Of a stretch of DNA of 31,401 bases, positions 67 through 24,111 are shown piece after piece. The first letter of the stretch is position 1. Each line of letters begins with the position of its first letter. The stretch comes from a virus. The DNA lies in IMG/VR virus record IMGVR_UViG_3300033144_005525, positions 1 to 31,401 of that record, one strand, 5' to 3'. A program made the position numbers and the translations under genes. Below the pieces are notes generated by a model. It was not told where the DNA came from, did no database searches, and saw nothing but the letters and a program-made list of their open reading frames with translations.

Positions 67-1593
67 CTAGCCGACTCTCCGCACAGTGACTTCGGAGCCT
101 TCGAGGATTCCGCTCGCAAGTGTGCAGATGAAATCCAGCGACGTGAGGTTGGCAGCAGCATCTTCCCAGTTACCAGACACGTCGATGTTATTTATCCAGC
201 TAGAGGCACCAAACTGATGAGCATTGGTGGCCCTGAAGCCACGCCGAACCGCAACTCCGTTGATTGTACGTGCCGCCCAGAAACGCATTTTGACGCGCAG
301 TACGTTGTGACCAGTTGCCGAACCACTGGAGTTGAACTGTCCGTTTGAGTCATCGACCGCCGACCCTCCCGAGACCACACGCTCCGTGTTCATGTTCGTC
401 GTAGAACCGTTGGGGGCTATATCCACGTCTTGTGCGCTCAGAGAAGTGATCAGCGTGCCGCTGATCTCGTACTCACCGTCCGTGTCGCCATCGAGCCCGG
501 TGAGGGAAAGCGTGGTGGCGTCGGCAGTCAGCACCGTTCTGGAAACGATGTTCGAGCTGTTCGTGCGCTTCAAGCGGTAGAGCGAGAAGCGAGCTCCCTC
601 TTTGATAGCACTGGCAACCGACGCCGTGATGTCGAGCGACGTGATGTTGGTTGCCGTATCAGCCCATCTTCCCGAAGTAAGGATGACGTAATCCGCTGAC
701 GCGGATATCTGCGCATCCTGTCCGTGGAAAAACCTGTTCTGGCCCGTCTTTGCAGATAGCCAACATCGGCCAGAATTCTCGTCACCAGAGATAGGCGCCG
801 CGATTAGCAGACTGGAGAGCGTTGCATCATCGAGCGAGGTTCCACCGAAGATCCTGGCCCCTGTCTGGTTGGCGGTAATTCCATTTGGACGCAGAGTGTA
901 GGAGACCGTCCCGACCGGGTCTGGAAAGAAGTACTCCAGGTAGTACTCCTCGTCTTCGTCCCCGTTGAGTCCGTCGAAGGTCACCGTCGTGGTATCGGCG
1001 CCAACCTCGATGGTCTCCAGGTGCTCCAGTGGACCAGCGAGTCCACCAGGTCCGCCCATTTCCATGATGGAAGCAGACGTACCCACACCCGCCCAGGCAG
1101 CGGATGACAGGGTTGTGGCGCCGCCTCCGAGCGCGACAGCTAGACACCTGATCTCGACTTCGATGTCAGTGGAAGGAACAACCAGAGCAAAAGGGGCCAC
1201 GCTGTACCCGGAATCACTGTTGACATTTGCAGAGAAAGGCACGCCTGCCGAACCCAGCACGACATCGTTGGTTACGTCGTGCCAGGAAAACGGTATGCGG
1301 GTCCCATTGTCACCAAGCGAAATGCCCGCCGTGAGGAAGTACGTTCTACCGGCCTTCAGCGTACTGAACCGTCCGACGTTCGTTACTCCATCAACCTCAA
1401 TCCCACGATTCTGCATGACCGTGTCGAACTCAACGACATCATCTACAGCCCATGTCCTTGACTGGTCGGAGGACAGCTTCGCCTGGATGAAGTCCGGCGC
1501 CCCTCGCCCACCCAGGCGTTCAACGAACGTCTTGGTGGCGACATCGTTTGCGTCAACTGGGTCGGGAACTTGCTGGTAGGATTGCTTCGACAT
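67..1593 (-). CDS. Modular tail fibre/receptor-type structural protein (domains A-B-B)
   Basis: This 508-residue protein is probably a virion surface or fibre component. It shares modules with the next two upstream genes. Module A (about residues 35-180) contains a GRFSTLKAGRTY block, a later W-x-DVT segment, and an EIxxMG-type end. Module B occurs twice (about 190-345 and 350-508), each copy with a GDxDxEY segment, a PNGxxxN segment, and a W-x-D-x-x-x-N-x-TSLD segment. The ATG at 1593 is preferred over an earlier in-frame codon at 1620. It has AAGGAGAT at 1600-1607, six bases before it, and overlaps the previous stop as TGATG. There is no signal peptide, membrane segment or enzymatic motif. 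The fibre role is inferred from module repetition and operon position; no named family is recognised. Confidence 0.75.
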   Translation of the reverse strand: MSKQSYQQVPDPVDANDVATKTFVERLGGRGAPDFIQAKLSSDQSRTWAVDDVVEFDTVMQNRGIEVDGVTNVGRFSTLKAGRTYFLTAGISLGDNGTRIPFSWHDVTNDVVLGSAGVPFSANVNSDSGYSVAPFALVVPSTDIEVEIRCLAVALGGGATTLSSAAWAGVGTSASIMEMGGPGGLAGPLEHLETIEVGADTTTVTFDGLNGDEDEEYYLEYFFPDPVGTVSYTLRPNGITANQTGARIFGGTSLDDATLSSLLIAAPISGDENSGRCWLSAKTGQNRFFHGQDAQISASADYVILTSGRWADTATNITSLDITASVASAIKEGARFSLYRLKRTNSSNIVSRTVLTADATTLSLTGLDGDTDGEYEISGTLITSLSAQDVDIAPNGSTTNMNTERVVSGGSAVDDSNGQFNSSGSATGHNVLRVKMRFWAARTINGVAVRRGFRATNAHQFGASSWINNIDVSGNWEDAAANLTSLDFICTLASGILEGSEVTVRRVG

Positions 1594-3440
1594 CAGCGGA
1601 TCTCCTTGATAGTCGCCCAAGAATTATCCGACTCGATGAACGCAGACGCTGTCCCCGTCAACATTCGGCACTCGACTTCAGAGTCCACAGAAGGTGTAAA
1701 AATGGCTTTTGCCACACTTTGTGTCGCAGCTGGTGATGTCGCAGTCGGTGTGCGACCTATGCCGGCGATCCCCAGCGAGACTGCACCAGTCACGTCGTAC
1801 CACTGATACCGAATCTCAGCAGAACCCGACCCTATTACTACCTGCGAAGAAGCGGTCAATTCATACGTGCGCCCAGCCTTGAGTGTCATAAATTTTCCAG
1901 CCGAGTCTGTGGTAAGCACTTTCGAGCCCAAGTCGGTATCGAAATCGATGGCCGTCACAGCAAACGTGTGGTCCCCGGAGAGTCCAGCCATGATGTACTC
2001 GGAGCCTCGCGCCGGCTGAGCCAACGCTTCGTTGATCAGCGTGACGTTGACCGTGATACCAGGCGTTCCTCCTCCTGTGGTTGTGAGCGAAGTCGTCGCA
2101 ATACCAACCTCGATCTCATCACCCAACGCAAGCTCATGAATGCCCACAGCCTCGATGTCGCGTGCGAAAATGGTGTTCGTCGTATCGAGCGTTGCCGTAA
2201 GGACTGTGACCCCACCCACTTTCAAGTTCACCGTAATCGAACCAGCAGTCACCACGTCGTTGAGAGATGCACTCAGACCGATCGCGCTGCCCTGGTACGT
2301 AGCGTGCCCAGTGGTGTACTCGACCTCGGCATTGGTACCTTGCGAGACCGTGGCGCCAACCTGGCGCTCGTACGTTGAGGCGTTGTCAGCGCGAACGTTG
2401 CTGCTGGTCCGACGCCAAAGGACGAAACGGGCGCCAGCGCGGATCAAGGACGCAACAGTCGAAGTGATATCTATGCTGGTGACGTTGGTTGTCGTATCAG
2501 ACCAGAATCCATAGTTCTGGATGGCATGACGGTTACTACCTCCATCACTCTGAAACTGCTCACACTGAAATGCCCGTTGCTTGCCAGTCTTTGCGTGAAA
2601 CTCAGCTCTGAGACCCTGGACGTATGGTGTTGTGTTTGACTGAGCGAGGTACAGCCTTGAACCAGTGGCCGTTGCGTGGGAGGAACCTGCGTAGTGGCGT
2701 ACTCCTAGCTGGTTGGTCGTTAGTCCATTCGGACGAAACTCGAAATCCCCGGTTCCTCCTGGACTCGGCAAGTAGCCCTCAAGAATATACGTCTCGTCAA
2801 CGTCGCCATCGAGAACACGCCCAAAAGCTCCATCCCCTCCTTCTCCGAAGGACACCGAAGTCTGATCCGCTGTGACCTCGATGATGTCCAAGAATTCCAG
2901 GCCACCGATGACGTTTGCCTGAACCGCGCCTATTTCTTCGATCAAAGCGTGCGTGGAGATGTTGCTGAAGGTCATGCCCGAATCGGTGGCCCACAGCTCG
3001 ACTTCCGTATCTTCCGTCGGTTTGATCACTGCGAGGGCGCATGGTTGAGCGCTAACACCTCCAGTGTTGTTGACAGCGTAGTGGATGGCTTGCTGCCCGA
3101 TCAACGCAGCCCCAGTAATGTCTCTCCACTGTGTCTTGCCAGCAGCGTTAGTCGAGATCCTGCCCCAGCCCAGCAAGCGATAGGTCCGACCTGCCTTGAG
3201 TCCTGAGAACCTTCCAGCAGCACTCACCGCGAGGTCCCCTTGGCTGTCCAAAACAGTGTCGATATCTAACGGCGTGTTGATGGCGGGCGAGTGACCTGTC
3301 CCCATCGTTGCGTGAAGGAAGTCTCCCTGCGCCGCCGCAACGAAACCGCCGCCTCCTCCTGAGGAATCAGCGTACGCCTTGTTGGCTGCGTCTACGTCAT
3401 CGACGGCTGTGGGTGGCGTCTGGTGTGCGAGCTTAGACAT
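1593..3440 (-). CDS. Modular tail fibre/receptor-type structural protein (domains A-B-C-A)
   Basis: This 615-residue protein is a paralogue of the C-terminal two thirds of the 907-residue protein encoded upstream. Module order is A (about 40-172), B (180-343), C (350-478), then a second A (482-615). The N terminus has a DxxxxANKAYAD segment followed by a glycine run, as seen at the N-terminal side of many phage fibre proteins. Module C is a predicted beta-rich block that is strongly conserved between the two paralogues. The protein ends in IKEIR, and those codons also contain the Shine-Dalgarno sequence of the next gene. The ATG at 3440 is chosen because AAGGAGAT (3447-3454) lies six bases upstream and the start overlaps the previous stop as TGATG; a start at 3461 would ignore both. 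The structural role is an inference. Confidence 0.78.
   Translation of the reverse strand: MSKLAHQTPPTAVDDVDAANKAYADSSGGGGGFVAAAQGDFLHATMGTGHSPAINTPLDIDTVLDSQGDLAVSAAGRFSGLKAGRTYRLLGWGRISTNAAGKTQWRDITGAALIGQQAIHYAVNNTGGVSAQPCALAVIKPTEDTEVELWATDSGMTFSNISTHALIEEIGAVQANVIGGLEFLDIIEVTADQTSVSFGEGGDGAFGRVLDGDVDETYILEGYLPSPGGTGDFEFRPNGLTTNQLGVRHYAGSSHATATGSRLYLAQSNTTPYVQGLRAEFHAKTGKQRAFQCEQFQSDGGSNRHAIQNYGFWSDTTTNVTSIDITSTVASLIRAGARFVLWRRTSSNVRADNASTYERQVGATVSQGTNAEVEYTTGHATYQGSAIGLSASLNDVVTAGSITVNLKVGGVTVLTATLDTTNTIFARDIEAVGIHELALGDEIEVGIATTSLTTTGGGTPGITVNVTLINEALAQPARGSEYIMAGLSGDHTFAVTAIDFDTDLGSKVLTTDSAGKFMTLKAGRTYELTASSQVVIGSGSAEIRYQWYDVTGAVSLGIAGIGRTPTATSPAATQSVAKAIFTPSVDSEVECRMLTGTASAFIESDNSWATIKEIR
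2016..2396 (-). repeat. Module C copy 1 (diverged coding repeat)
   Basis: This segment encodes the C module of the 615-residue protein. It aligns without large gaps to 3908-4291 in the 907-residue gene. Many differences fall at third codon positions, and the protein blocks NAEVEYTTGHAT and LKVGGVTVLTATLDTTNT are unchanged. The pattern suggests an old duplication kept under protein-level selection. Identity was judged by eye. Confidence 0.8.
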
Positions 3441-6163
3441 CAGAGGATCTCCTTGATCCACACCCGAGAGCGGAGGTAGTAGAAACGCTGTAAACCGCCC
3501 GTCGTAATCACGTCGAGCTTGATGGTGATGTCGGCCACTGGCTCAAAAATATGCGTGGATGTACAAAGCGTCACGTTGTCGGTTCCAACGTTGTCGTACA
3601 GCAGGAAACCCCCCATCTCAAGGCCCAGAACATCCACGAGAGCGGAGTCATCGGAATCATCTCGCCACTGAACATGGCAACCGCCTTCGTTCACGAGCGG
3701 GTTCAGGTGCGCGTACAGCTCATAGCGCTTGCCACCCTCCAAGGTGAACAGCCCGTTGTTTTGGCTCGGTACGGCGTCGGGCGCGGTGAGCGTGATAGAT
3801 GTCCCACGCGAGTCCTCCACGTTCCACTCGATATGGTGGTTCACCGATTTGTTTACTGTCTGATCTTCGCTGAGCCCAGCGTACAAGTAATCGAACGCAG
3901 TCTCTGGCGGTTGCGAAATCCCTTCATTGACCAGCGTGACGTTGACCGTGATGCCTGGAGTGCCTGCGCCCGTCGTGACAAGAGAGGTTGTCGCAATGCC
4001 AATCTCGATCTCGTCACCCGCCACCAAGTCATGAACACCGACGGATTCAATGTCCCGGTCGAAAATGGTGTTCGTCGTGTCGAGCGTCGCCGTGAGAACC
4101 GTGACCCCACCCACCTTCAAGTTGACAGTGATCGAACCGGCCGTCACCACGTCGTTGAGAGACGCGCTCACGCCGATTGCACTGCCTTGGAAAGTCGCGT
4201 GCCCCGTCGTGTACTCGACTTCGGCATTGGTTCCCTGCGCGACTGTGGCTTCCACGTTGCGCTCGTACGTCGAAGCGCTGTCGGCCCGCACGTTGTTGGT
4301 GGTTACACGATACAACGTGAAGACAGACCCGGGTTCGAACGTTGTACCAGCAATGGCAACCACGAGACTCGTGATGTTGGTGCTCGTGTCGTCCCACTTA
4401 CCCCCGCAGTGGTGATCCTTCAGATCAGTCGTCGCTACACCGGGTTCCGTGTTGATGCTGTCCGACAGCCAGTGTCGTGGTTGTCCCGTCTTCGCATCAA
4501 GGGATGCCTTGAAATACCCGAACTGTGCAGTGGCATCAGAGATGAGCAACGTCGCGTTTGTGCCCTGAAACAAACCAGCACTGGTCAAGTTCCTTCGCAC
4601 CGACATCTGGTTCGCAGTAATCGCATTTGGCTGAAGCGTGATGTCGTTGGCTGTATTCCCCGGCTTCACAATTCGACCGACCACCACGTACTGCTCATCC
4701 GCGTCTCCATCGAGAGCACGAAGGAGCGCACCGTCCCCGGTGGCACCGAACGTCACCGAAGCGGCGGATGCTCCAACAACGATCTGGTCCATATACTCCA
4801 GGCCGCCGATGACGTTGGCTTGGACTGCGCCAATCTCGATAACCGCGCCCCATGAATCCGACCCGTCCGAGTTGGCAGGACTTGACTGTATCCAGTTGAT
4901 TCGCAGCTCAACTGTAGTGTCAACGAGTGGCGTGAAAATTTCGTGAGTGTTAGCAGCCCTCCAAGTTGTGGCCGTAGCCGCCTGACCAAGCCAAACCGAA
5001 TTAGTTACATCGTACCAACGGACCCCCATGTTGTCGGTAGAGGAGCGCATCCGACCTATGAGTAAGTACGTTCTACCGGCCTTCAGTCCAACGAACTGAT
5101 TGCCTGAACTCGATAGGTCTCCGCGCTGTCGATCAACAGTGTCGAGATTGGCTGAATCTCCAACAACAATGCCCGTCTGCGAAGAACCCAGCTTCGACAG
5201 ATAGTCACCCAATGCCGCCGTGACAGGCTCAGCACTACCGCTCTCGTCCTGCCAAGTGGCTGTTGTGGCAGCGGTGGCCTTGAGCACCTGGCCGACGCTC
5301 GGAGGCGCTGCTGCAGCCACGTCCACGTCCGCGCCGGTGGTCGCCAGAGCTTCCGCCGTGGTGCCTCCTGATGGAGGAACAGCAAAGCTCCCATCAGCAC
5401 GAAGGAAATCCGTCGTGCCTCCGGGGTACTTCTGCATCAGACCATGAACAGAGGTGCTGGCATCCAGATCCGTGTTGTCGTCAGGGACCGCCAAATCGTC
5501 GAGTTTCACTGCATCTGGTTGACCCTCACCATGATCAGCCGCATGAAGCTTTGCATGATGATCGTCGGTCGTCTTACCTGTCGTGTCTGTATGAGCATGC
5601 GTGTGTGCTGTCGGTGTACGAGCGTCGGTGTTCCTGGAGTCGGAGTCCGTGACGTAGGGATTGCCCGCTGCAGGGGCTCCGTCTGTACCTGCGAGTGCGT
5701 CGTTCTCATCTGCTGATGGGAGCTGAGCATCCAGAGGACGGAGCAAGGCATCCAGGCGCGGCCCGTAGCCAGCTACGCCATCGAACTGAAGTGTCTCTCC
5801 CAGACCCAGGAGCTGGTTGCCTCCCGGTTGGGCGATCGCCAGACCACCCTGCGTGGAGACCTTGTTCCCGTCCGCATCCAGAGTGTAGGACTTGGTCCCA
5901 TCTCCATACTCCACGAAGGCCAGGTAGGCTCCCTCTTCTCCAACAGCAGGAGTGAAGGTAGGGAGCTCGGCAGTGGTAGAGGACAGGACAACTGTGGACC
6001 CATCGGGTACGAGCAGTGTCCACAACCGTCCAGGAACTGCACCTGGATTTGCTGGGTCACTCAGAGTCACTACCTGGCCAGTGACGCCATCGACACGAGA
6101 TGATCCAGGAGTACCGGCTCCTAGAGTGACCTGATCAATCAGGATAGTGACTGGGTTAGCCAT
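3440..6163 (-). CDS. Large modular tail fibre/receptor-type protein (N-domain plus A-B-C-A)
   Basis: This 907-residue protein is the longest of three mosaic paralogues. Residues 1-150 form a unique N domain, perhaps for virion attachment. Residues 185-215 are a histidine-rich stretch with HTHAH and DHHAKLHAADH, like the HxH segments of tail fibres that can bind metal. Residues 239-267 (HGLMQKYPGG ... DGSFAVPPSGG) follow a pattern common in phage fibre repeats. Modules A (about 320-447), B (455-620), C (625-752) and A (755-907) then match the neighbouring 615-residue protein in order. It ends in WIKEIL, whose codons carry the next gene's Shine-Dalgarno sequence. The start at 6163 lies 7 nt after the previous gene. 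Known: such mosaics are typical of adsorption proteins. Inferred: this one binds receptors or forms side fibres. Confidence 0.78.
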   Translation of the reverse strand: MANPVTILIDQVTLGAGTPGSSRVDGVTGQVVTLSDPANPGAVPGRLWTLLVPDGSTVVLSSTTAELPTFTPAVGEEGAYLAFVEYGDGTKSYTLDADGNKVSTQGGLAIAQPGGNQLLGLGETLQFDGVAGYGPRLDALLRPLDAQLPSADENDALAGTDGAPAAGNPYVTDSDSRNTDARTPTAHTHAHTDTTGKTTDDHHAKLHAADHGEGQPDAVKLDDLAVPDDNTDLDASTSVHGLMQKYPGGTTDFLRADGSFAVPPSGGTTAEALATTGADVDVAAAAPPSVGQVLKATAATTATWQDESGSAEPVTAALGDYLSKLGSSQTGIVVGDSANLDTVDRQRGDLSSSGNQFVGLKAGRTYLLIGRMRSSTDNMGVRWYDVTNSVWLGQAATATTWRAANTHEIFTPLVDTTVELRINWIQSSPANSDGSDSWGAVIEIGAVQANVIGGLEYMDQIVVGASAASVTFGATGDGALLRALDGDADEQYVVVGRIVKPGNTANDITLQPNAITANQMSVRRNLTSAGLFQGTNATLLISDATAQFGYFKASLDAKTGQPRHWLSDSINTEPGVATTDLKDHHCGGKWDDTSTNITSLVVAIAGTTFEPGSVFTLYRVTTNNVRADSASTYERNVEATVAQGTNAEVEYTTGHATFQGSAIGVSASLNDVVTAGSITVNLKVGGVTVLTATLDTTNTIFDRDIESVGVHDLVAGDEIEIGIATTSLVTTGAGTPGITVNVTLVNEGISQPPETAFDYLYAGLSEDQTVNKSVNHHIEWNVEDSRGTSITLTAPDAVPSQNNGLFTLEGGKRYELYAHLNPLVNEGGCHVQWRDDSDDSALVDVLGLEMGGFLLYDNVGTDNVTLCTSTHIFEPVADITIKLDVITTGGLQRFYYLRSRVWIKEIL
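3908..4291 (-). repeat. Module C copy 2 (diverged coding repeat)
   Basis: This is the partner of the repeat at 2016-2396, located in the 907-residue gene at about residues 625-752. Module order around it (A-B-C-A) is the same in both genes, so the duplication probably covered most of the gene rather than module C alone. Confidence 0.8.
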
Positions 6164-6760: not shown

Positions 6761-6967
6761 TTACTCGACTATGCCTGGGTCTTTCTGATCTACGACAGTG
6801 CGAACCAAAGCTGCTATCCCAGCATCGTTAGCCGACAGAGTCTCGACCACGACCAAGCCTGCATCATCCACACGAACCAACACAGCGTTCCCTGGTGATA
6901 CGTCTCGCACCGAGATGGTCTCGCTCCATTGTCCCTTTGCAATGACTTTGATATCTGCACTTGCCAT
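6761..6967 (-). CDS. Small tail-module protein (68 aa)
   Basis: This 68-residue protein begins MASADIKVIAKGQWSETI and continues with alternating hydrophobic residues (NAVLVRVDDAGLVVVETL), suggesting a small beta fold, then a short helix. No family is recognised. The ATG at 6967 is chosen because AGGTGA lies just upstream and it overlaps the preceding stop as TAATG. A longer in-frame start at 6997 would lie inside the paralogous virion gene before it. Confidence 0.62.
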   Translation of the reverse strand: MASADIKVIAKGQWSETISVRDVSPGNAVLVRVDDAGLVVVETLSANDAGIAALVRTVVDQKDPGIVE

Positions 6968-7962
6968 TAGGTCACCTGCGGTAGCGTTCCATCCCACGGA
7001 ACAATGACGTCACTGAATTGTGCGAACAAATGCGTTCCAGTTCCAGGATACGTCGTGCCATTCACAACGTTTGCTCGTCCGAACCACACATCTGGAATTC
7101 GTCCAATAACTCCAGACGCTCCGGCAGTCCCACTAACGACCACCGTTGGGAGTATTGGATTACAGGCATCCAGCTCATTGGCGATGGTGATGCGCTCACC
7201 TACTGAATCACTCACTGTACCTTCACAGGCTAGTGAGCACGACATCAGAACTCCCCCATCAGTGACACGCATGAGCCCTTGCTCTGCATTGTGCATCGTC
7301 GCGTAGTTGGCTGCGTTTACATCTGCGCCTTGAGAAAGGAAAGAGCCAAGACGTCGATTGATCCAACTAACTTGCGGTATTGCAAAACCAGTTACTGGAT
7401 CCAACAGAGTATCAACAAACCACTTGGCGTAAGGCGCTCCTCCACGGAACGTAAACAACCTAGTATGTAGGTTGTCGGTACTCTGCATAATGTGGACAAC
7501 AGACTGAGCACTACCCGAATAGTTACTGGTAAGAAATCCTCCAGCACTGATTATGGTCGATCGATTAGGAGATGTCGGTATAGCTGTATTGGAGCCTCCA
7601 CTAAAGTCAGAGAGAGGGCTCCAGTATAAGTACACTGTGTAGTGAGCCAACAAAGAGCTTCCTTGAATGCGTCGATCTTCCCACAGAATCTGCTGCCCAC
7701 CTGGGCTCTGCATAACGATCCAGCTACGCGCTCCTGATCCAGACGAACTAGAAACAATGTCCCCTAGATCGATCCAACGATCTACACCGTCCATGTCTCC
7801 AGTTACTGCATCACTGGAACCAGCTATAGTCCACCCGAAGGTGGTCTTCAGCATGTTTTTGATGGCGAAGATTGCCTGCTGTCCAGCAGAAGATCCGCTC
7901 CCAGTTACCGTGAACATGTCGTAGGTCCAAGACAATTCCGGCGTAGGTAGTGTGCAAGCCAC
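6967..7962 (-). CDS. Virion protein, tandem paralogue 2 (331 aa)
   Basis: This protein is a paralogue of the gene directly upstream (7962-8966). Both contain a DxVDRW segment, an RSWIV block (about residues 75-95), a YxxWSP segment, and a C-terminal GRIPDxWFG block. Both end with FAQFxDxIVPWxG. The C-terminal PW-G ending is familiar from uncharacterised phage tail proteins, but I cannot name a family. The start is a GTG at 7962 that overlaps the preceding stop as TAGTG, with GGAG eight bases upstream. The paralogues are well diverged, so the duplication is old. The role, perhaps a baseplate periphery or decoration component, is inferred only from position between the sigma gene and the fibre genes. 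Confidence 0.68.
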   Translation of the reverse strand: MACTLPTPELSWTYDMFTVTGSGSSAGQQAIFAIKNMLKTTFGWTIAGSSDAVTGDMDGVDRWIDLGDIVSSSSGSGARSWIVMQSPGGQQILWEDRRIQGSSLLAHYTVYLYWSPLSDFSGGSNTAIPTSPNRSTIISAGGFLTSNYSGSAQSVVHIMQSTDNLHTRLFTFRGGAPYAKWFVDTLLDPVTGFAIPQVSWINRRLGSFLSQGADVNAANYATMHNAEQGLMRVTDGGVLMSCSLACEGTVSDSVGERITIANELDACNPILPTVVVSGTAGASGVIGRIPDVWFGRANVVNGTTYPGTGTHLFAQFSDVIVPWDGTLPQVT

Positions 7963-8966
7963 TATGCGATCTCCGGGATGACGCCGTTCCAAGGAACGAT
8001 CAGGTCACCGAACTGAGCAAACTGATACGTGTTGTCGGCGGGGAACGGAGTACCTGTGACGGTTGCTGCATTACCGAACCACAGATCCGGTATCCGTCCC
8101 AGACGTCCACGAGCTCCTACGGTCGTGGACACGATACCGATGGGCAAAAATGGATCCTCTCCTGTGAAGGAATTTGGAACCAACAAGCGTTGTCCCACAC
8201 CATCGTTCACACTGGCCCACGTTGATAACGATGCGTTGAGTTGTACACCTCCGGCCGACACGACTCCCTGGAACGTTTCTGCGTCGAACAGCTCAGAGTA
8301 CGATGGAGCCCTGGTTTCTGTGGACGTGGCTGCGTGTGAGGCATCCGCCACGTAAGGCAGCGTCCAAGCGGCTGCCACGTCCACAACCTTAGTGAAGATC
8401 CAACGAGCTGTACAAAGACTATTCCTCGTGAACAACACAATGGTCGCAGCACCATCGGTCGTGCTCAACACATGGACTTTGAAGGTTGCTCCGCCGTTGA
8501 TGTCTGCGAGCCACGCGTTCGAACACAACGTACGGTTATCTGTTGCAGTAGGTTGCGTGGTTGTGGTTCCACCCACATATCCACCACTAGGAGACCACTG
8601 GATGTAGATATCTCGTGCGGAGTTTCCAGACCCTCCCGGGTTGTCAGTGCGACGACAGTCGATTAGAAGCTGCCCACCATCTACGTTCTGCAGCACAATC
8701 CAACTGCGAAGCTTTGTGCCAGAGTCGCTCGTAGAGAACTTGATGTCTGTGTCCGGATCAGTCCAGCGGTCTACGGCATCCATCCCAGCGGTGACCGTGT
8801 CGTTTGATCCAGCGACTGTCCATGGATTCAACGCGAAGCCAATCATGGACTGCTTCACCGCAAAGAGAACCTCACGGTGATGATCTTCCCGACTCGTACC
8901 AGACACGAGTTGGTTGACGTCGTGTTGCCACGCCTTCTCCAACGTCGGTAATCCGAACAGAGCCAT
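7962..8966 (-). CDS. Virion protein, tandem paralogue 1 (334 aa)
   Basis: This is the first of two adjacent paralogues; see 6967-7962 for shared blocks. Here the C terminus reads GRIPDLWFGNA followed by QFAQFGDLIVPWNGVIPEIA. The N terminus (MALFGLPTLEKAWQHDVNQ) has a helix absent from the second copy. The ATG at 8966 has GGGAG about seven bases upstream and overlaps the preceding TGA as TGATG. There is no signal peptide or membrane segment. It is probably a tail-associated structural protein, with function unassigned. Confidence 0.68.
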   Translation of the reverse strand: MALFGLPTLEKAWQHDVNQLVSGTSREDHHREVLFAVKQSMIGFALNPWTVAGSNDTVTAGMDAVDRWTDPDTDIKFSTSDSGTKLRSWIVLQNVDGGQLLIDCRRTDNPGGSGNSARDIYIQWSPSGGYVGGTTTTQPTATDNRTLCSNAWLADINGGATFKVHVLSTTDGAATIVLFTRNSLCTARWIFTKVVDVAAAWTLPYVADASHAATSTETRAPSYSELFDAETFQGVVSAGGVQLNASLSTWASVNDGVGQRLLVPNSFTGEDPFLPIGIVSTTVGARGRLGRIPDLWFGNAATVTGTPFPADNTYQFAQFGDLIVPWNGVIPEIA

Positions 8967-9196
8967 CAGCTATCTCCCTTGAGCTTCGGAGGTTTGCCCA
9001 GATACTCGTCGATGGAATCGACCAGAATCACAGAGGCCCCTTCTGCGTTGGCATCCTGCAGACCTATATTTCCTCCACGCTTCTTGGAGATAGCGTCCAG
9101 GAAGTCGAACTCAGCGTTCAACCTGACCTTCTCCTTGGCGAAGTACTCATCGGCAGCCGTCTTGAGCTCGGCCAATCGTTCTGTTGCAGTGGCCAT
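8966..9196 (-). CDS. Small helical protein (76 aa)
   Basis: This 76-residue protein has a strongly helical, charged N-terminal half (residues 1-40, heptad-like AELKTAADEYFAKEKVRL) and a C-terminal DEYLGKPPKLKGDS tail. No family is recognised. It overlaps the sigma gene stop by one base (TAATG) with GGAG directly adjacent, so it is probably translated by reinitiation after the sigma factor. It could be a small virion component or a partner of either neighbour; nothing in the sequence decides this. Confidence 0.6.
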   Translation of the reverse strand: MATATERLAELKTAADEYFAKEKVRLNAEFDFLDAISKKRGGNIGLQDANAEGASVILVDSIDEYLGKPPKLKGDS

Positions 9197-10056
9197 TACT
9201 CCAAGATCTCCATGGCATCTCTGACCCTACCCTGCAGCTTCTTGCGAATACGGGAGATCTTGCTGGCGTGGATACCTGTCTTCTTGGCGATCTGTCCAGG
9301 CTTGAGGAGAGGCTTCCCATTCACACCGAAGGTGTACTCGTAGACCGTCCTCTCTTCTGGCTGTAGGTCATACTGAATGAGCTTGAACGCCTCGAGCTCC
9401 TTGGGAGCCAGGACCTCGGCCGGGTCATTCAAGAACCCAGAAGCGGATAGATCCGGCCTATTTTCTTTCTCGAGCTGGATGATCCTCTTGACAGGCTCAC
9501 CCATGTGGTCGGCGATGCTTTGAGTGTCGGGCTCATGTCCGAGCTTGGCAGCCAGTTCCTCCTTGGCAGCTTTGTACGGAGTGATGAGGCTGATCTGCCC
9601 CTCTGGGATCTTACCCAGGTTCTGGTAGGTCTTGATGAAGCGCTGCCCCTTCTTGAGGTTAGTCGTCACCCAAGTATTGAGCTTGGTGCCTCTTCCAGGA
9701 TCGTAGGACTTCATCGCGTTGACGAACTGCTTGTTCATCTCGTGATGGATGGCCGACGTAGGGATTGGGACCTTGCCAGAGTAGACCCTCGTCTGCTTGG
9801 CTATGATGGGCTTGAAGGACTCGTGGAGAGGCTTCAGGTCGGCTGGCTTACGCCCTCCCTGATCCCACTTCTGCCAGAGCTCCGCCTCCTTCTGCTGAGT
9901 CTTGCGGAGATCCTTGCGGGCCATGCCCATCCTGGAGTCCTGCCTGGGAAGAGCCAGGAAGCGTGGGATCTCAGGCTGCCGAAATAGATCGAAGAACCCA
10001 GCCTCCTTTGTCAGGAGCAGGGAGTCCAGCACATCTTCGTCACGCTTGGTCATCAT
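9196..10056 (-). CDS. Phage sigma-70 family RNA polymerase sigma factor
   Basis: This 286-residue protein is predicted to redirect host RNA polymerase to phage promoters. A region-2-like segment covers about residues 76-150, with NAMKSYDPGRGTKLNTWV matching the core-binding and melting helix pattern (xYDPxRGTxLxTW). A region-3-like segment follows at 160-195 (ELAAKLGHEPDTQSIADHM). Region 4 covers 222-285, with a helix-turn-helix at about 254-275 (PGQIAKKTGIHASKISRI). The N-terminal 60 residues are not sigma-like and contain AGFFDLF, loosely resembling the peptide shared by the neighbouring small proteins. Two adjacent ATGs (10056 and 10053) are both usable; the first overlaps the previous stop as ATGA. 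A perfect inverted repeat lies just upstream. Its position in the tail operon is unusual and suggests action late in infection, or in the next infection if it is packaged. Confidence 0.82.
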   Translation of the reverse strand: MMTKRDEDVLDSLLLTKEAGFFDLFRQPEIPRFLALPRQDSRMGMARKDLRKTQQKEAELWQKWDQGGRKPADLKPLHESFKPIIAKQTRVYSGKVPIPTSAIHHEMNKQFVNAMKSYDPGRGTKLNTWVTTNLKKGQRFIKTYQNLGKIPEGQISLITPYKAAKEELAAKLGHEPDTQSIADHMGEPVKRIIQLEKENRPDLSASGFLNDPAEVLAPKELEAFKLIQYDLQPEERTVYEYTFGVNGKPLLKPGQIAKKTGIHASKISRIRKKLQGRVRDAMEILE

Positions 10057-10229
10057 ACCTTTGGAGTGGTCACTCCAATTTTAGGTACAGATGGCGGACG
10101 AATACCACCGTTACGTAAATTGCCTAATGCCAATCCAGCGGTGGGCATCTTAGGAACCGCCAGACCAGGTATCGAGACGGCTATTTTCCTGAGCTCATCG
10201 CTGAATGCTTGGATGGATAGTGCATCCAT
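10053..10229 (-). CDS. Small KIA-peptide protein (58 aa)
   Basis: This 58-residue protein begins MDALSIQAFSDELRKIAVS and so carries the AF-x-D-EL-x-KIA peptide at residues 8-17. The rest is proline and glycine-rich with PKMP, PPSVPK and TTPKV segments and is probably extended. The ATG at 10229 is chosen because it follows the previous stop (10237) by 7 nt with an AGGCAG sequence between. A start at 10274 would overlap the upstream gene by 38 nt. It lies between a larger KIA protein and the sigma gene. Function unknown; the shared peptide suggests a common binding partner. Confidence 0.62.
   Translation of the reverse strand: MDALSIQAFSDELRKIAVSIPGLAVPKMPTAGLALGNLRNGGIRPPSVPKIGVTTPKV
10061..10078 (-). 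promoter_or_regulatory. Inverted repeat directly before the sigma factor start
   Basis: TTGGAGTG and CACTCCAA form a perfect 8-bp stem around a 2-base centre (in RNA, more likely 7 bp with a 4-base loop). It ends 4 nt before the first ATG of the sigma gene, so the AAGG ribosome-binding sequence partly falls in the stem. It could limit translation of the sigma factor, or act as a DNA operator. It lies within the last codons of the preceding 58-residue gene, so it may also be a by-product of coding sequence. Confidence 0.45.
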
Positions 10230-10236
10230 CTGCCTG

Positions 10237-10806
10237 TTATCCGAGTTGCCAGACGCCTGCTCCTCGACCACCACCTACTTGCCTGATGGGAGCAGAGGCT
10301 GCTGGGAGAGCTGCTTTGGCTTTGGGAACAGCCTTCGTGGCTCCCTTTCCGACTCCACCGCCCACCCTCTTGAGGAAATTCGTGACGGCTGGGCTCTTCC
10401 CTACTCCGGCGAGGAGGCTAGCGATTTTGTCGAGCTCACTCTCGAAGCCCAGATATGCAGCCCTGACGTAGTCCGGAGACGCTGCCTTCATCAGATCTGT
10501 CTGGCGCAGCCCATCGAAGAATGCCTGGTGGGCGGCCACCTTGAGCAGAGGATTGCTGGAGGCTGCTTCTGGAGATCTCTTGGCCTGTGGCAGCAGCTTC
10601 CCGACGAGCTTGGTGTCGGCGGTCTCGGCTGCCGCGGCCTGCTCGAACATGGGCTTGAGCTGAGCCCGCTGGTCCTTGACGTTGGCGTTGAGCTCAGCAT
10701 TGGCGATCTGCTGATCATCCGTGCTGGCCGACCACTGGGCCGGGTTGGTCTCTTCCGCTCTCTTCTCGAGCATGTTGATGTAGAAATCTCGGACCGGGGT
10801 CGTCAT
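10237..10806 (-). CDS. KIA-peptide protein with helical body (189 aa)
   Basis: This 189-residue protein is helical and alanine-rich and ends in a basic, glycine, proline and alanine-rich tail (residues 135-189) with repeated KAxxA units. A GFESELDKIA peptide lies near residues 120-129, internal rather than N-terminal. Two weaker look-alikes occur in the same protein: FYINMLEKRAE near the N terminus and AFFDGLRQTDLMKAA around residue 95. The ATG at 10806 has GAGGTG five bases upstream; the ATG at 10818 overlaps the previous stop but lacks spacing for a ribosome-binding site. No family is recognised. The basic tail would suit nucleic acid or virion-interior contact, which is speculation. Confidence 0.68.
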   Translation of the reverse strand: MTTPVRDFYINMLEKRAEETNPAQWSASTDDQQIANAELNANVKDQRAQLKPMFEQAAAAETADTKLVGKLLPQAKRSPEAASSNPLLKVAAHQAFFDGLRQTDLMKAASPDYVRAAYLGFESELDKIASLLAGVGKSPAVTNFLKRVGGGVGKGATKAVPKAKAALPAASAPIRQVGGGRGAGVWQLG

Positions 10807-10814
10807 CGAGCACC

Positions 10815-11363
10815 TCATTGGGTTGGGTCGCTAGGGATAGCGAAACGTTGGCCCATCGTTGGTGGCCGAAGTCTATCCCCCTTGTGAATTACCTTGTCTT
10901 GGAAACTACCGACTGCGCGGCTTTGTGCCAAGGACCTACCGGGTGTGAAAGTTCCAGACCCCGTCATAGCTGTCTTTTTCTTCCCTACGGCCATGTAATC
11001 TGCGATGCCAGCACCCCCACCAATCAGAGCGGAGGTAGTGTATTTGAGTCCGGCCGCTCTGCCGCCTGTCAAGATATTGGCGAGCAGGCTACCTACCAGG
11101 GCTCCTTTTGCAGCAGCTGCAGCAGGCTTCCTTGCTTCCCGATACCCTTTGTGGAACTTGCCTTTGAGTCCCTGTTGATCATCACTGGCAGCGATCTTGG
11201 GAACGAAGTTGGTGTCTCCTGGATGATTGCTGGAGAGCTCTCCACCAGGCAAGTACTCCTTGCCATGCCTGCCCGCCATGTTCGCTCGAGTGGCTGCATC
11301 CAGAGACACTGCAGCTATCTTCTGCAGCTCATCCCCGAACGCTTTGTAGGCTTGAACGTCCAT
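10815..11363 (-). CDS. KIA-peptide protein with glycine-rich hydrophobic segment (182 aa)
   Basis: This 182-residue protein begins MDVQAYKAFGDELQKIAAVS, with the KIA peptide at residues 8-17. Residues about 82-130 are alanine, glycine and leucine-rich (GALVGSLLANILTGG, then SALIGGGAGIADYM) and could form one or two membrane-inserting helices of the small-residue type. The C-terminal 50 residues are basic. The ATG at 11363 follows the previous stop by 2 nt with AGGT nearby. No family is recognised. The mix of a short N-terminal tag and a small-residue hydrophobic region would fit a protein delivered from the virion into the cell envelope, but this is only inference. Confidence 0.68.
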   Translation of the reverse strand: MDVQAYKAFGDELQKIAAVSLDAATRANMAGRHGKEYLPGGELSSNHPGDTNFVPKIAASDDQQGLKGKFHKGYREARKPAAAAAKGALVGSLLANILTGGRAAGLKYTTSALIGGGAGIADYMAVGKKKTAMTGSGTFTPGRSLAQSRAVGSFQDKVIHKGDRLRPPTMGQRFAIPSDPTQ

Positions 11364-11365
11364 GC

Positions 11366-11575
11366 CTATCTACCTGAGCGGACTCTGATCTCTCTACCCA
11401 GCTTGCGATCTGTATTGGCTTTTCGGAGGAGCTCCCACCCAGCAATGCCAGCTGCAGGCAACAGGAACTGGGGGCTCTTGGCCATGCTGAGTGCCTTGGT
11501 TCCGATATTGGCTTGAGCGATCTTCTGCAACTCGCTCTCGAATCCTCTTGACATTACGTCTACATAATCACTCAT
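11366..11575 (-). CDS. Small KIA-peptide protein with hydrophobic patch (69 aa)
   Basis: This 69-residue protein has GFESELQKIA at residues 11-20, then a hydrophobic stretch (FLLPAAGIAGWELL, about 37-50) and a basic end (RKLGREIRVRSGR). A strong GGAGGA lies immediately upstream of the ATG at 11575, and a 58-nt gap separates it from the hub-like gene, so it is translated independently. It is the first gene of the KIA cluster in reading order. Family unknown. Confidence 0.65.
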   Translation of the reverse strand: MSDYVDVMSRGFESELQKIAQANIGTKALSMAKSPQFLLPAAGIAGWELLRKANTDRKLGREIRVRSGR

Positions 11576-21622: not shown

Positions 21623-21919
21623 TTATGAATTGGCAAGCGCTGGGTGAGAGCTCATGTTCACGTGTGGGAGATTTTCGATGTTCCCAGCTCCGTCGAGCTC
21701 ACCGGTGATCTCTCGGTAGAGGTAGGTCCTAATAGCGGCCTGCTCGAACTTGGCCATCGGTCCGCCCAGCTCTTGATCGCACCACTGGTTGAACTTCTCC
21801 AGGCGCTCGTTGATGAGAGCCAGGAGCTTGCGGCCTCGATCCTCCTTGGAGGTGCAACGAGACAACTCATCCAGTGCTGTGTCGGAGAGCCTGATAACTA
21901 CTGCTTCTTGTCCTGCCAT
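21623..21919 (-). CDS. Small putative DNA-binding protein (98 aa)
   Basis: This 98-residue protein begins with a strand-like AVVIRLSDTALDELS and two helices (SKEDRGRKLLALINERLEKF), an arrangement compatible with a ribbon-helix-helix fold, though no family signature is certain. The C-terminal half is unassigned. AAGGAG lies seven bases before the ATG at 21919. The gene overlaps the end of the GIY-YIG gene by 22 nt, so the two form one transcript that ends at the hairpin at 21551-21591. Confidence 0.68.
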   Translation of the reverse strand: MAGQEAVVIRLSDTALDELSRCTSKEDRGRKLLALINERLEKFNQWCDQELGGPMAKFEQAAIRTYLYREITGELDGAGNIENLPHVNMSSHPALANS

Positions 21920-22521
21920 CCCTCGTCTCCTTGAACTACTAAGCGCACATTCTGTCGGAGTTTCTTCGAGTACTCCGCTTGAATGTTTTTTGGAGAGACT
22001 CCATTTCTGTCGGTAATTTCCATGATTTCTGGGATGGCTCCCATCTTCTGGAGAACTACCTTGTCCTTCGTGATGTTCAACTGGTACCCGTTGCTGATGT
22101 CGTGCTTGTCGAAGTACTCCTCCAAGGAGTCACTTATGATCGCGGTTTGCGATTTCCGTAGAACGAACGAAGCGTGTTTCAGTTGAGAAGCTAGATCAGG
22201 AAGCAACCTAACCGTGGTGGCTGCTCCCTTGAATGATTTCGATTTTCTACCAGACAGTTCCTTAGAGTTGAACTCTGGCTTTAGCTTCTCTATGTACGAG
22301 TTCTCCTGGCTTGTCAGTTCCTCTTCTGGGCACTCAGTGAGAACGGACATCTCGAAATCAGTCTCCCCGAATAGCTTCCACGCGTACTGAAGAGCCTTGT
22401 TTTTGTGGCTGCCTCTTTTGAGAGTACGTACGTGCTCTTTCTGGCGGCCATATATGTCGACTGCGCTGCCGACATATCGATGTCCGTTACTCCTACACAA
22501 TATCTGATATACCCCCGACAC
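21898..22521 (-). CDS. GIY-YIG endonuclease with ribbon-helix-helix-like domain
   Basis: This predicted DNA endonuclease (207 residues from the GTG at 22521) has the GIY-YIG nuclease core at residues 3-85. The paired motifs are GVY (3-5) and YVG (16-18), with catalytic arginine R26 in YGRQKEH and glutamate E73 in SQENSYIEKLKP. From about residue 110, TTVRLLPDLASQL and KSQTAIISDSLEEYF read like a ribbon-helix-helix DNA-binding unit, where homing enzymes usually carry NUMOD or other helix-turn-helix modules. An upstream in-frame TTG (22572) is unlikely, because the near-consensus promoter boxes lie inside that extension. The start at 22521 (or GTG 22527) puts the nuclease motif at the N terminus, as usual in the family. 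It is free-standing, probably a selfish element between gene blocks, or a regulator. Confidence 0.82.
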   Translation of the reverse strand: MSGVYQILCRSNGHRYVGSAVDIYGRQKEHVRTLKRGSHKNKALQYAWKLFGETDFEMSVLTECPEEELTSQENSYIEKLKPEFNSKELSGRKSKSFKGAATTVRLLPDLASQLKHASFVLRKSQTAIISDSLEEYFDKHDISNGYQLNITKDKVVLQKMGAIPEIMEITDRNGVSPKNIQAEYSKKLRQNVRLVVQGDEGWQDKKQ

Positions 22522-22533
22522 TAACACAACCAA

Positions 22534-22562
22534 GTTATAGAGGCATTGAGTGTTGAAGTCAA
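22534..22562 (-). promoter_or_regulatory. Near-consensus sigma70 promoter of the GIY-YIG gene
   Basis: On the minus strand TTGACT (22557-22562) and TATAAC (22534-22539) are exactly 17 bases apart, each 5 of 6 to consensus. Transcription would start near 22527, giving a leader of at most about 6 nt before the GTG at 22521, or none if GTG 22527 is used. This is the best sigma70-type promoter seen in the window. Confidence 0.7.
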
Positions 22563-22573
22563 TGCCATACAAA
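22546..22573 (+). promoter_or_regulatory. Possible divergent promoter for the ligase operon
   Basis: On the plus strand TTGAGT (22546-22551) and TACAAA (22568-22573) are 16 bases apart, 4 of 6 matches each. The position suits the ligase gene starting at 22597, and it overlaps the -35 box of the opposite GIY-YIG promoter. This is weak evidence; only position makes it credible. Confidence 0.35.
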
Positions 22574-22596
22574 AATACTGAGTCATGGAGTTACTT

Positions 22597-24111
22597 ATGT
22601 CAACAAATACAGTCACAGAAGAATTCGCCAAGCACTGGGCCTCCCTCCACTTCGAGAGCCGACAAGCTCAGTGGGATGGGGCTCGCCGTACGTTCAGACA
22701 GCTCCACGGCCGTGCTGAACGGCCCACGGTCTGGAGGATCTGGGTAGAGGGCGATCGCTACCTGACGCAGCACGGGCTCCTGGACGGCAAGATGCAGAGC
22801 ACGTCCAAGAAGGGCAAGGCCAAGAACAAAGGCCGCGCCAACGAGCTCACTCCGGAGCAGGACGCTTTGGCTGAGGCCCGGCGCCTATGCCGGAAGAAGT
22901 GGGACTTCGAGGGATACGACGAGTATGTCCTAGACATCAACATCGACTGTCGTGCCACTGCCGGAGACATCTCGATCCCACACCTGCTCACCAACTTGCC
23001 GAGCTCCTTCTGCCTCTACAAGCCGCAGAACAACATCGAGGAGTGCAAGGGACTGCTCAAGAAGGCAGCCGCGGCCAAGGTCCTGTACACGCTCAAGCGG
23101 AATGGACTGGCCATGTGGATCGTCGTCGACGGCTCCGGGGACGTCCACATGTACAGCCGACGGAACCGTGTGTCCCACAAGAACGAGGGGCCTCGAGAGA
23201 TGATCGACGGGACGATGCACTACGGAGAGGTGATTCCCTGGGTGATTCGATTCCCCCATCTGGTGGATGCCGTGAAGTCCTTAGAGCTCCCTCCGTTCTC
23301 CATGATGGCCTGCGAGCTGATCTCGATGGAGGGAGATGAGAAGAAGCACTTCGCTCATGTCTGCTCTATCGAGAAGTCCCTCACCCCAGAATCTGTAAAG
23401 AAACAGGAAGAGAGAGGCCACCTGGGTCTGTACTGGTGGGATCTGCCCTTCTACAACGGTGAGGATTGGGTCTCGACCAAGTCGGTGAGTGCTCGTTACA
23501 AAACCCTCAAAGGTATTCACGATGCTGCTGGGCTGAAGAATGAGGCTGCTGGGTGGATCCAACCAATCACCTACTACGAGTTTGGCGACCCGGACCTAGC
23601 AATCACCTTCGCCAAGGAGAACAACCTCGAGGGATTCGTAGTGGTGGATCCAGAGGGAGTCTACGGCGACAAGGGCTGGAACATGAAAGGCAAGCCAGAC
23701 CGACCAGGGAAGTTCTGCGCGAAGCTCAAGCCCTTCTGGGAGGACGACTTCATCGCCTTCTGGAATCCCAGTACGGGCTGGGGAACCGAAGGGAAGGGCA
23801 AACACGAGAAGGGCAAGAAGGTCACCTTGCCCAACCAGAAGACGGTGGTGCACGGAGGAGTAGGTAGCGTTGGGTTGGGGCAATACAACCAGGCTGGGGA
23901 GCTGATCTACATCTCGGACTGCAGCTCCGGTATGTCTTACGCCCTTCAGTCATACCTCACCGCAACGGACTTCCCGATGGTCTGTGAGGTCAAGTACAAC
24001 GATCGCTCCTACATCTCTGATGGAGACGACACCAACGCTCTCACCTTCCCAGTCTTTGTGAGGCTACGTCCCGACAAGGCCCTTGCGGAATGTGTCAGTG
24101 ACAAGCTCTAA
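22597..24111 (+). CDS. ATP-dependent DNA ligase with N-terminal WGR-like domain
   Basis: This 504-residue protein is predicted to seal DNA nicks. Residues 15-110 form a WGR-like domain (VWRIWVEGDRYLTQHGLLDGK, then GKAKNKGRANELTPEQ and a KKW-x-x-GY end), as found in front of several phage ligases. The nucleotidyltransferase core has motif I KRNG (167-170), motif III CELISMEG (239-246), motif IIIa LYWWDLPF (278-285), motif IV EGFVVVDP (345-352) and motif V CAKLKPFW (374-381). An OB domain ends in FVRLRPDKA (487-495, motif VI). Motif I is KxDG in known ligases, so the asparagine is odd. The ATG at 22597 is chosen over 22585 because GGAG lies six bases before it. It is first of a plus-strand set with small overlapping genes. 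Confidence 0.9.
   Translation: MSTNTVTEEFAKHWASLHFESRQAQWDGARRTFRQLHGRAERPTVWRIWVEGDRYLTQHGLLDGKMQSTSKKGKAKNKGRANELTPEQDALAEARRLCRKKWDFEGYDEYVLDINIDCRATAGDISIPHLLTNLPSSFCLYKPQNNIEECKGLLKKAAAAKVLYTLKRNGLAMWIVVDGSGDVHMYSRRNRVSHKNEGPREMIDGTMHYGEVIPWVIRFPHLVDAVKSLELPPFSMMACELISMEGDEKKHFAHVCSIEKSLTPESVKKQEERGHLGLYWWDLPFYNGEDWVSTKSVSARYKTLKGIHDAAGLKNEAAGWIQPITYYEFGDPDLAITFAKENNLEGFVVVDPEGVYGDKGWNMKGKPDRPGKFCAKLKPFWEDDFIAFWNPSTGWGTEGKGKHEKGKKVTLPNQKTVVHGGVGSVGLGQYNQAGELIYISDCSSGMSYALQSYLTATDFPMVCEVKYNDRSYISDGDDTNALTFPVFVRLRPDKALAECVSDKL

Follow-up and report, generated by a model that had tools for sequence, protein, structure and literature searches.

The window analysed here, meaning the whole stretch of 31,401 nucleotides, comprises bases 1-31401 of a virus record of 191,126 bases (G000). 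Between a gene for a hub-like protein and a sigma-factor gene, its minus strand carries four consecutive genes whose products share a ten-residue peptide ending in KIA, hereafter the tag. Genes were called with a simple codon-usage script, and their exact starts are therefore provisional. In window coordinates, the features of the cluster are:

9196..10056, minus strand: sigma-70-like factor (Pfam Sigma70_r3, 1e-5; PHROG 351, 1.5e-10)
10000..10008, minus strand: K-E-A element of the sigma factor (LLLTKEAGFF)
10053..10229, minus strand: tagged small protein of 58 residues (MDALSIQAFSDELRKIA...), ATG at 10229, tag at residue 8
10179..10208, minus strand: AFSDELRKIA, tag copy of the 58-residue protein
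10237..10806, minus strand: tagged protein of 189 residues, ATG at 10806, tag internal
10420..10449, minus strand: GFESELDKIA, internal tag copy of the 189-residue protein
10756..10764, minus strand: short K-x-A element (MLEKRA) close to the start of the 189-residue protein; a single instance, weak alone
10815..11363, minus strand: tagged protein of 182 residues (MDVQAYKAFGDELQKIA...), ATG at 11363, tagged also in syntenic relatives
11313..11342, minus strand: AFGDELQKIA, tag copy of the 182-residue protein
11366..11575, minus strand: tagged protein of 69 residues, ATG at 11575, tag retained in homologues
11516..11545, minus strand: GFESELQKIA, tag copy of the 69-residue protein

On the minus strand all four decapeptides read in frame, exactly where a preliminary description of this DNA had placed them. 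Searches of the window's tagged proteins against PHROG and Pfam matched no family. The same description called the four proteins otherwise unrelated, and there is indeed no significant similarity outside the tag, except that the 189- and 69-residue proteins also match before it: the internal copy of the former aligns with the latter over 18 residues at 67% identity (DYV...GFESEL.KIA), the residues that precede the tag (PDYVRAAYLGFESELDKIA) corresponding to the N terminus of the 69-residue protein (SDYVDVMSRGFESELQKIA). Given this agreement before the tag, a fusion is the simplest account of the 189-residue protein, in which a new N-terminal part was likely joined ahead of a tagged protein, burying a once N-terminal tag. 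An internal start at ATG 10491 for this tag was considered and rejected, as no ribosome site is visible upstream. In the 58-residue protein, the position of the tag at residue 8, counted from the ATG at 10229, is the commonest spacing among relatives.

The adjacent sigma factor had been proposed to carry a degenerate tag copy, AGFFDLF, near its N terminus. That assignment was mistaken: the common element is LTKEA, which directly precedes AGFFDLF and takes the place of the long tag. Orthologous sigma factors have LEKEA, LGKLA or LGKIA here, and the orthologue in one relative, G003, lacks the element. Elsewhere in the window, three tandem paralogous minus-strand genes (67-6163; 517, 622 and 907 residues) and a second pair of paralogous genes (6967-8966) are in tail-region positions, a look-alike of GIY-YIG homing nucleases (GVYQI...YVGSA) was recognized by eye at 21898-22572, and the plus strand at 22585-24111 encodes an ATP-dependent DNA ligase-like protein with weak Pfam matches.

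The tag was initially described as a property of four neighbouring genes, a limit that does not hold, as three further exact copies lie elsewhere in the record, and looser copies adjoin the capsid gene:

46380-47003, 125925-126119 and 147072-147659 of record G000: genes with further exact tag copies

Nor is the peptide as rare in this proteome as chance would predict, the outcome that the preliminary description had named as counting against it. The called proteome of G000 holds seven exact copies of F..EL.KIA, all on the late strand, against 0.0023 expected, and seven of the narrower [AGS]F.[DS]EL.KIA against 0.00007; no exact F..EL.KIA occurs among the 1,306 uncalled open reading frames of the record. 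A DNA-level version of the pattern, with Phe also allowed for Leu, gives eight matches in G000, all on the minus strand, and its reversed control none. When viral contigs were searched with a degenerate DNA pattern for AF.DEL.KIA, we found at least 136 copies in at least 118 stretches, distributed over many large environmental phages; a motif with the same letters in scrambled order matched three stretches. Bacterial and archaeal genomes, 257 Gb in all, gave 75 matches to the pattern, all single. Chance, low complexity or a DNA-level repeat (duplicated gene starts, a mobile element or a ribosome-site artefact) could draw on the clustering of the four genes and on nothing more, and is already refuted by the expected and scrambled-motif counts. 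Moreover, the Leu, Lys and Ile codons vary among the copies in G000, so that conservation is at the protein level, which speaks for selection on the peptide and against a recent DNA repeat; we give this explanation practically no weight.

A looser pattern, applied to G000 and 25 further large records (134-210 kb), gives 1-11 copies per record, mostly on one strand, and its reversed control matches none of the 26. Among the matches listed, the tag lies within 20 residues of the chosen start in 91 of 114 non-redundant tagged proteins, most commonly at residue 8, and a minority of tags is internal; the N-terminal placement proposed as a check in the preliminary description is thus the prevailing one. 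The profile of these 91 N-terminal tags is M-[N/E/D]-x-[I/V]-x-[L/M/Y/F]-x-A-F-x-D-E-L-[E/V/Q]-K-I-A, in which the letters A-F-D-E-K-I-A were preset by the search pattern; conservation ends at the last Ala, with none beyond. Looser copies from five whole phages, collected without preset letters, have the same form. With the looser search G003 has about 18 tagged proteins (MNSFEFGFFDELEKIA...), and a copy from G018 reads MIDFSAFSDELVKIA.

Relatives of G000 were reached through the tag. Megablast against phages gave no match, nor did tblastn of a 20-residue tag against phages, and IMG/VR pattern searches with the sigma factor or the hub alone returned no relatives, whereas the tag motif itself did. 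The four records G014, G009, G018 and G003, although found via the motif alone, are true relatives, which share orthologous core genes with G000, those for the capsid protein, the terminase and the sigma factor among them. G014 and G009 preserve the gene order from the hub-like protein to the sigma factor and have tagged genes there too: G014_88 and G009_63, the syntenic genes of the 182-residue protein, are tagged, and G014_87 and G009_62, homologues of the 69-residue protein, keep the tag, so that the conservation in homologues on which the first description had made its proposal depend is observed. Most of the four also share a fused RNA polymerase with G000, where a protein of 2,104 residues (G000:134351-140665) matches several beta-subunit RNA polymerase families and is apparently the fused enzyme; it has little excess of K-[ILVMT]-A and may therefore not be processed like head proteins.

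The last three residues of the tag match a shorter signal, K-[I/L/V/M/T]-A, that is in threefold excess in the head proteins of G000. In many head proteins just the end of the tag is present, as phi-x-K-[I/V/L/M/T]-A; it mostly falls among the first 30 residues, and its flanks diverge: the capsid protein has EGKEKVA in its N-arm, orthologues of one head-block protein have FEKMA, FRKMA, HEKTS, VEKLA and LEKIA, and those of a second have LEKTA, QEKLA, IEKMA and LEKLA. The 40 head-block proteins of G000 contain 78 instances of K-[ILVMT]-A, whereas each of its five permutations has 23-30; [EDQ]-K-h-A is there 32 times and the reversed AhK[EDQ] three times. Within that block Arg does not stand in for Lys, and the tail, baseplate, early and replication genes of G000 show no excess of K-[ILVMT]-A. 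Ranked among 400 a-[ILVMT]-b classes, this signal comes first in the head proteins of G000 (z=10), first in the late proteins of G003, G018 and G014, and fourth in those of G009; in the head proteins of the distant relatives Arash and D69 it is second, with a weaker excess than in the four closer records. A grouped test gave 213 against 45, with groups that were picked after the motif was known. In G003, Gly is accepted at the last position in tags and head proteins alike (EKLG in the capsid protein), which hints that the same machinery reads both. The capsid protein element sits about ten residues earlier in some tag-bearing phages; an AF2 model of this protein (pLDDT 34) was too poor for use.

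The T4 prohead protease gp21 cuts at [I/L]-x-E. Such T4-like sites, and phiKZ-like S/A-x-E, were considered as head sites here and rejected for want of a head-specific excess: L-x-E is equally in excess in head (z 2.7) and non-head proteins (z 2.6), I-x-E is not enriched in head proteins (z 1.1), and the tag ends in KIA. The general occurrence of K-x-A in head proteins would also fit a tag that is a processing signal only: the cargo would come to the head in some other way, and the peptide would just be cut efficiently by the protease. We regard this as improbable, since conservation covers F-x-D-E-L and the preceding residues and so extends well past a tripeptide site, and since most head structural proteins have K-x-A alone and lack the F-x-D-E-L part.

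A protease that could read such sites is encoded in the record:

117254-119377 of record G000: prohead (head maturation) protease gene, identified by the phrog_18299 profile and an invariant His/Ser pair, with fold matches in a viral structure library

The phrog_18299 profile (head maturation protease) matches the N-terminal domain in 17 of 18 homologues (best 2.5e-11), and H80 and S136, 56 residues apart, are invariant in all 18 and are candidate catalytic residues. In the viral structure library, an AF2 model (pLDDT 80.5) matches numerous proteins annotated as prohead proteases with probability 1.0; Foldseek of the model against the PDB gave no match at E<0.001, and a PDB sequence search with the protease no significant one. 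All 26 tag-bearing records searched encode the protease, and three scrambled-motif records, which are smaller, do not. In G002, G004 and G024 the profile matches the protease gene in two to four separated pieces in one frame (953-1,679 residues), as if large in-frame insertions, perhaps inteins, interrupted it. The protease domain is also matched by proteins of unknown function, gp19 of Bacillus phage G and others from Mycobacterium and Gordonia phages, so new head maturation protease annotations could be made there.

In essentially all homologues, those of Arash and D69 included, the protease domain is bracketed by K-x-A, with EKTA, EKVA, EKSA, TKQA and so on at its N-side and KLAS, KVAS or KAAS at its C-side. 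An inorganic pyrophosphatase-like domain (PF18823) likewise has K-x-A or K-x-S near one or both ends in most settings, compared with an expectation for K-x-A of about 8% in a random 15-residue window. PF18823 modules are found in the protease gene itself and in a head-block gene of G000 that also bears a C39 peptidase (127497-129773), unusual company for such a domain. Some K-x-A sites fall within folded domains (residues 137 and 220 in the protease gene), and therefore not all can be cut.

These sites bear on the main rival explanation, a permanent docking tag whose helix would bind the scaffold, the portal or the inner wall of the capsid without ever being removed, K-x-A being part of the binding motif. 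The conserved A, F, D, E, L, K, I and A would make an amphipathic helix, and both the internal tags and the K-x-A sites in folded regions suit such an explanation. It accounts less well, however, for the sharp drop in conservation right after KIA and for the K-x-A sites on both flanks of the protease domain and at most pyrophosphatase modules, and site turnover in linkers also speaks against it; on balance we consider permanent docking unlikely.

Tagged proteins are mostly small, of no recognized family and with unrelated folds. The recognized cargo comprises SNF2-type helicases, C92 amidases, a DNA ligase domain, a GNAT acetyltransferase and MazG. After the tag, cargo carries a charge of +0.082 per residue, against -0.015 in length-matched late proteins (p=3e-23), and glycine zippers occur in 65 of 131 tagged cargo proteins, against 32 of 131 length-matched late proteins. 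A membrane-anchor role was considered and rejected, as TM-like stretches are not commoner in tagged cargo (6/131 against 10/131). Basic internal proteins bearing sequences like the capsid-targeting sequence (CTS) are packaged by T4-type phages (PMC9026906). The helicases, ligase domain and MazG could also be expected of a tag for localisation inside the cell, such as to a replication compartment or to vegetative DNA, with no relation to the virion; yet the copies are mostly on the late strand, and the K-x-A excess is found in head proteins and is absent from replication genes, which makes such a role quite improbable.

We therefore return to the reading that we favour, at a probability of about 0.66: the tag would be a removable capsid-targeting propeptide, cut by the prohead protease after K-x-A, with the cargo staying in the head. 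In the mechanism proposed from these sequence patterns, some 17 N-terminal residues would form an amphipathic address by which the cargo docks on the core or scaffold while the prohead grows. The prohead protease (117254-119377) would then cut after K-[I/V/L/M/T]-A, a short site that would also serve in the N-arm of the capsid protein, in scaffold and internal proteins and at either flank of the protease domain; a cut after K-x-A would probably be a new protease site. Candidate scaffold genes lie at 113600-117195 of the record. Once freed, the cargo would stay alongside the DNA inside the head, from where it would presumably be injected. The earlier suggestion that the peptide targets proteins to capsid or scaffold, and does not reflect a shared catalytic role, is largely upheld by the N-terminal placement, the unrelated basic cargo, the late-strand genes, the ending common to head proteins and protease flanks, and the 26/26 co-occurrence with the protease; the tag is not limited to this cluster, and the suggestion had not foreseen the likely cleavage by a head protease and erred on the sigma-factor copy.

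In T4, as described in PMC9026906, CTS are propeptides of 10-19 residues that both target and are processed, and in IPIII the targeting residues are in the first part and the processing residues at the end. The split between F-x-D-E-L and K-I-A would be the same division of targeting and processing in other letters. As with the CTS of IPI-III in that source, a short N-terminal peptide (about 17 residues here) is found on otherwise diverged proteins, the cargo is small and basic, the site at the end, here a presumed one, is common to other head proteins, and a prohead protease is encoded. Unlike the T4 CTS, the tag has another sequence, its presumed cut site is K-x-A where T4 has Glu at P1, and it occurs on a larger and more diverse set of proteins (about 18 in G003), helicases and amidases included. 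We suggest that the tag works like a T4 CTS and do not claim membership, given the differences in cut site and sequence.

The systems of phiKZ gp175 and SPN3US gp245, in the portions of PMC9026906 and PMC10052503 that cover them, offer a second likeness: a three-residue P3-P1 motif recurs in many head proteins of large-genome phages, and the protease processes its own flank. A shared N-terminal address tag is not described in those portions. In contrast to the S/A-x-E and A-x-E sites of phiKZ and SPN3US, it is K-x-A that is enriched here; A-x-E and S-x-E are not. Salmonella phage Arash and Vibrio phages D69, D181 and D148 (about 180-187 kb) are related to G000 in capsid protein, terminase and protease. 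In Arash and D69 the protease is present and the head proteins have K-x-A elements, as in G000, but there is no copy of the long F-x-x-E-L-x-K-I-A tag, and this head type therefore does not require it. Beyond phages, encapsulin cargo-loading peptides are short linear tags that address unrelated enzymes to an HK97-fold shell; they differ in position, sequence and shell type, and encapsulins have no removal step. In the literature covered, outside which most subscription papers fall, we found no mention of DELEKIA or such a tag.

More broadly, we see an even chance that, in a large and mostly uncultivated phage clade, a portable N-terminal tag of this kind loads up to about 18 proteins per phage, whole enzymes among them, into heads for delivery to the host, and is trimmed by a prohead protease specific for K-x-A, as opposed to the Glu-P1 sites of T4, phiKZ and SPN3US. 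If so, the prohead protease would have a new cut site, and exact mature N termini would be predictable from the tag. Head-carried proteins that enter the host are a long-standing blind spot, and a ten-residue pattern alone would predict which proteins of uncharacterized function ride in the head, presumably as the first to enter the host; the tag would also be a simple label with which to load chosen proteins into phage heads.
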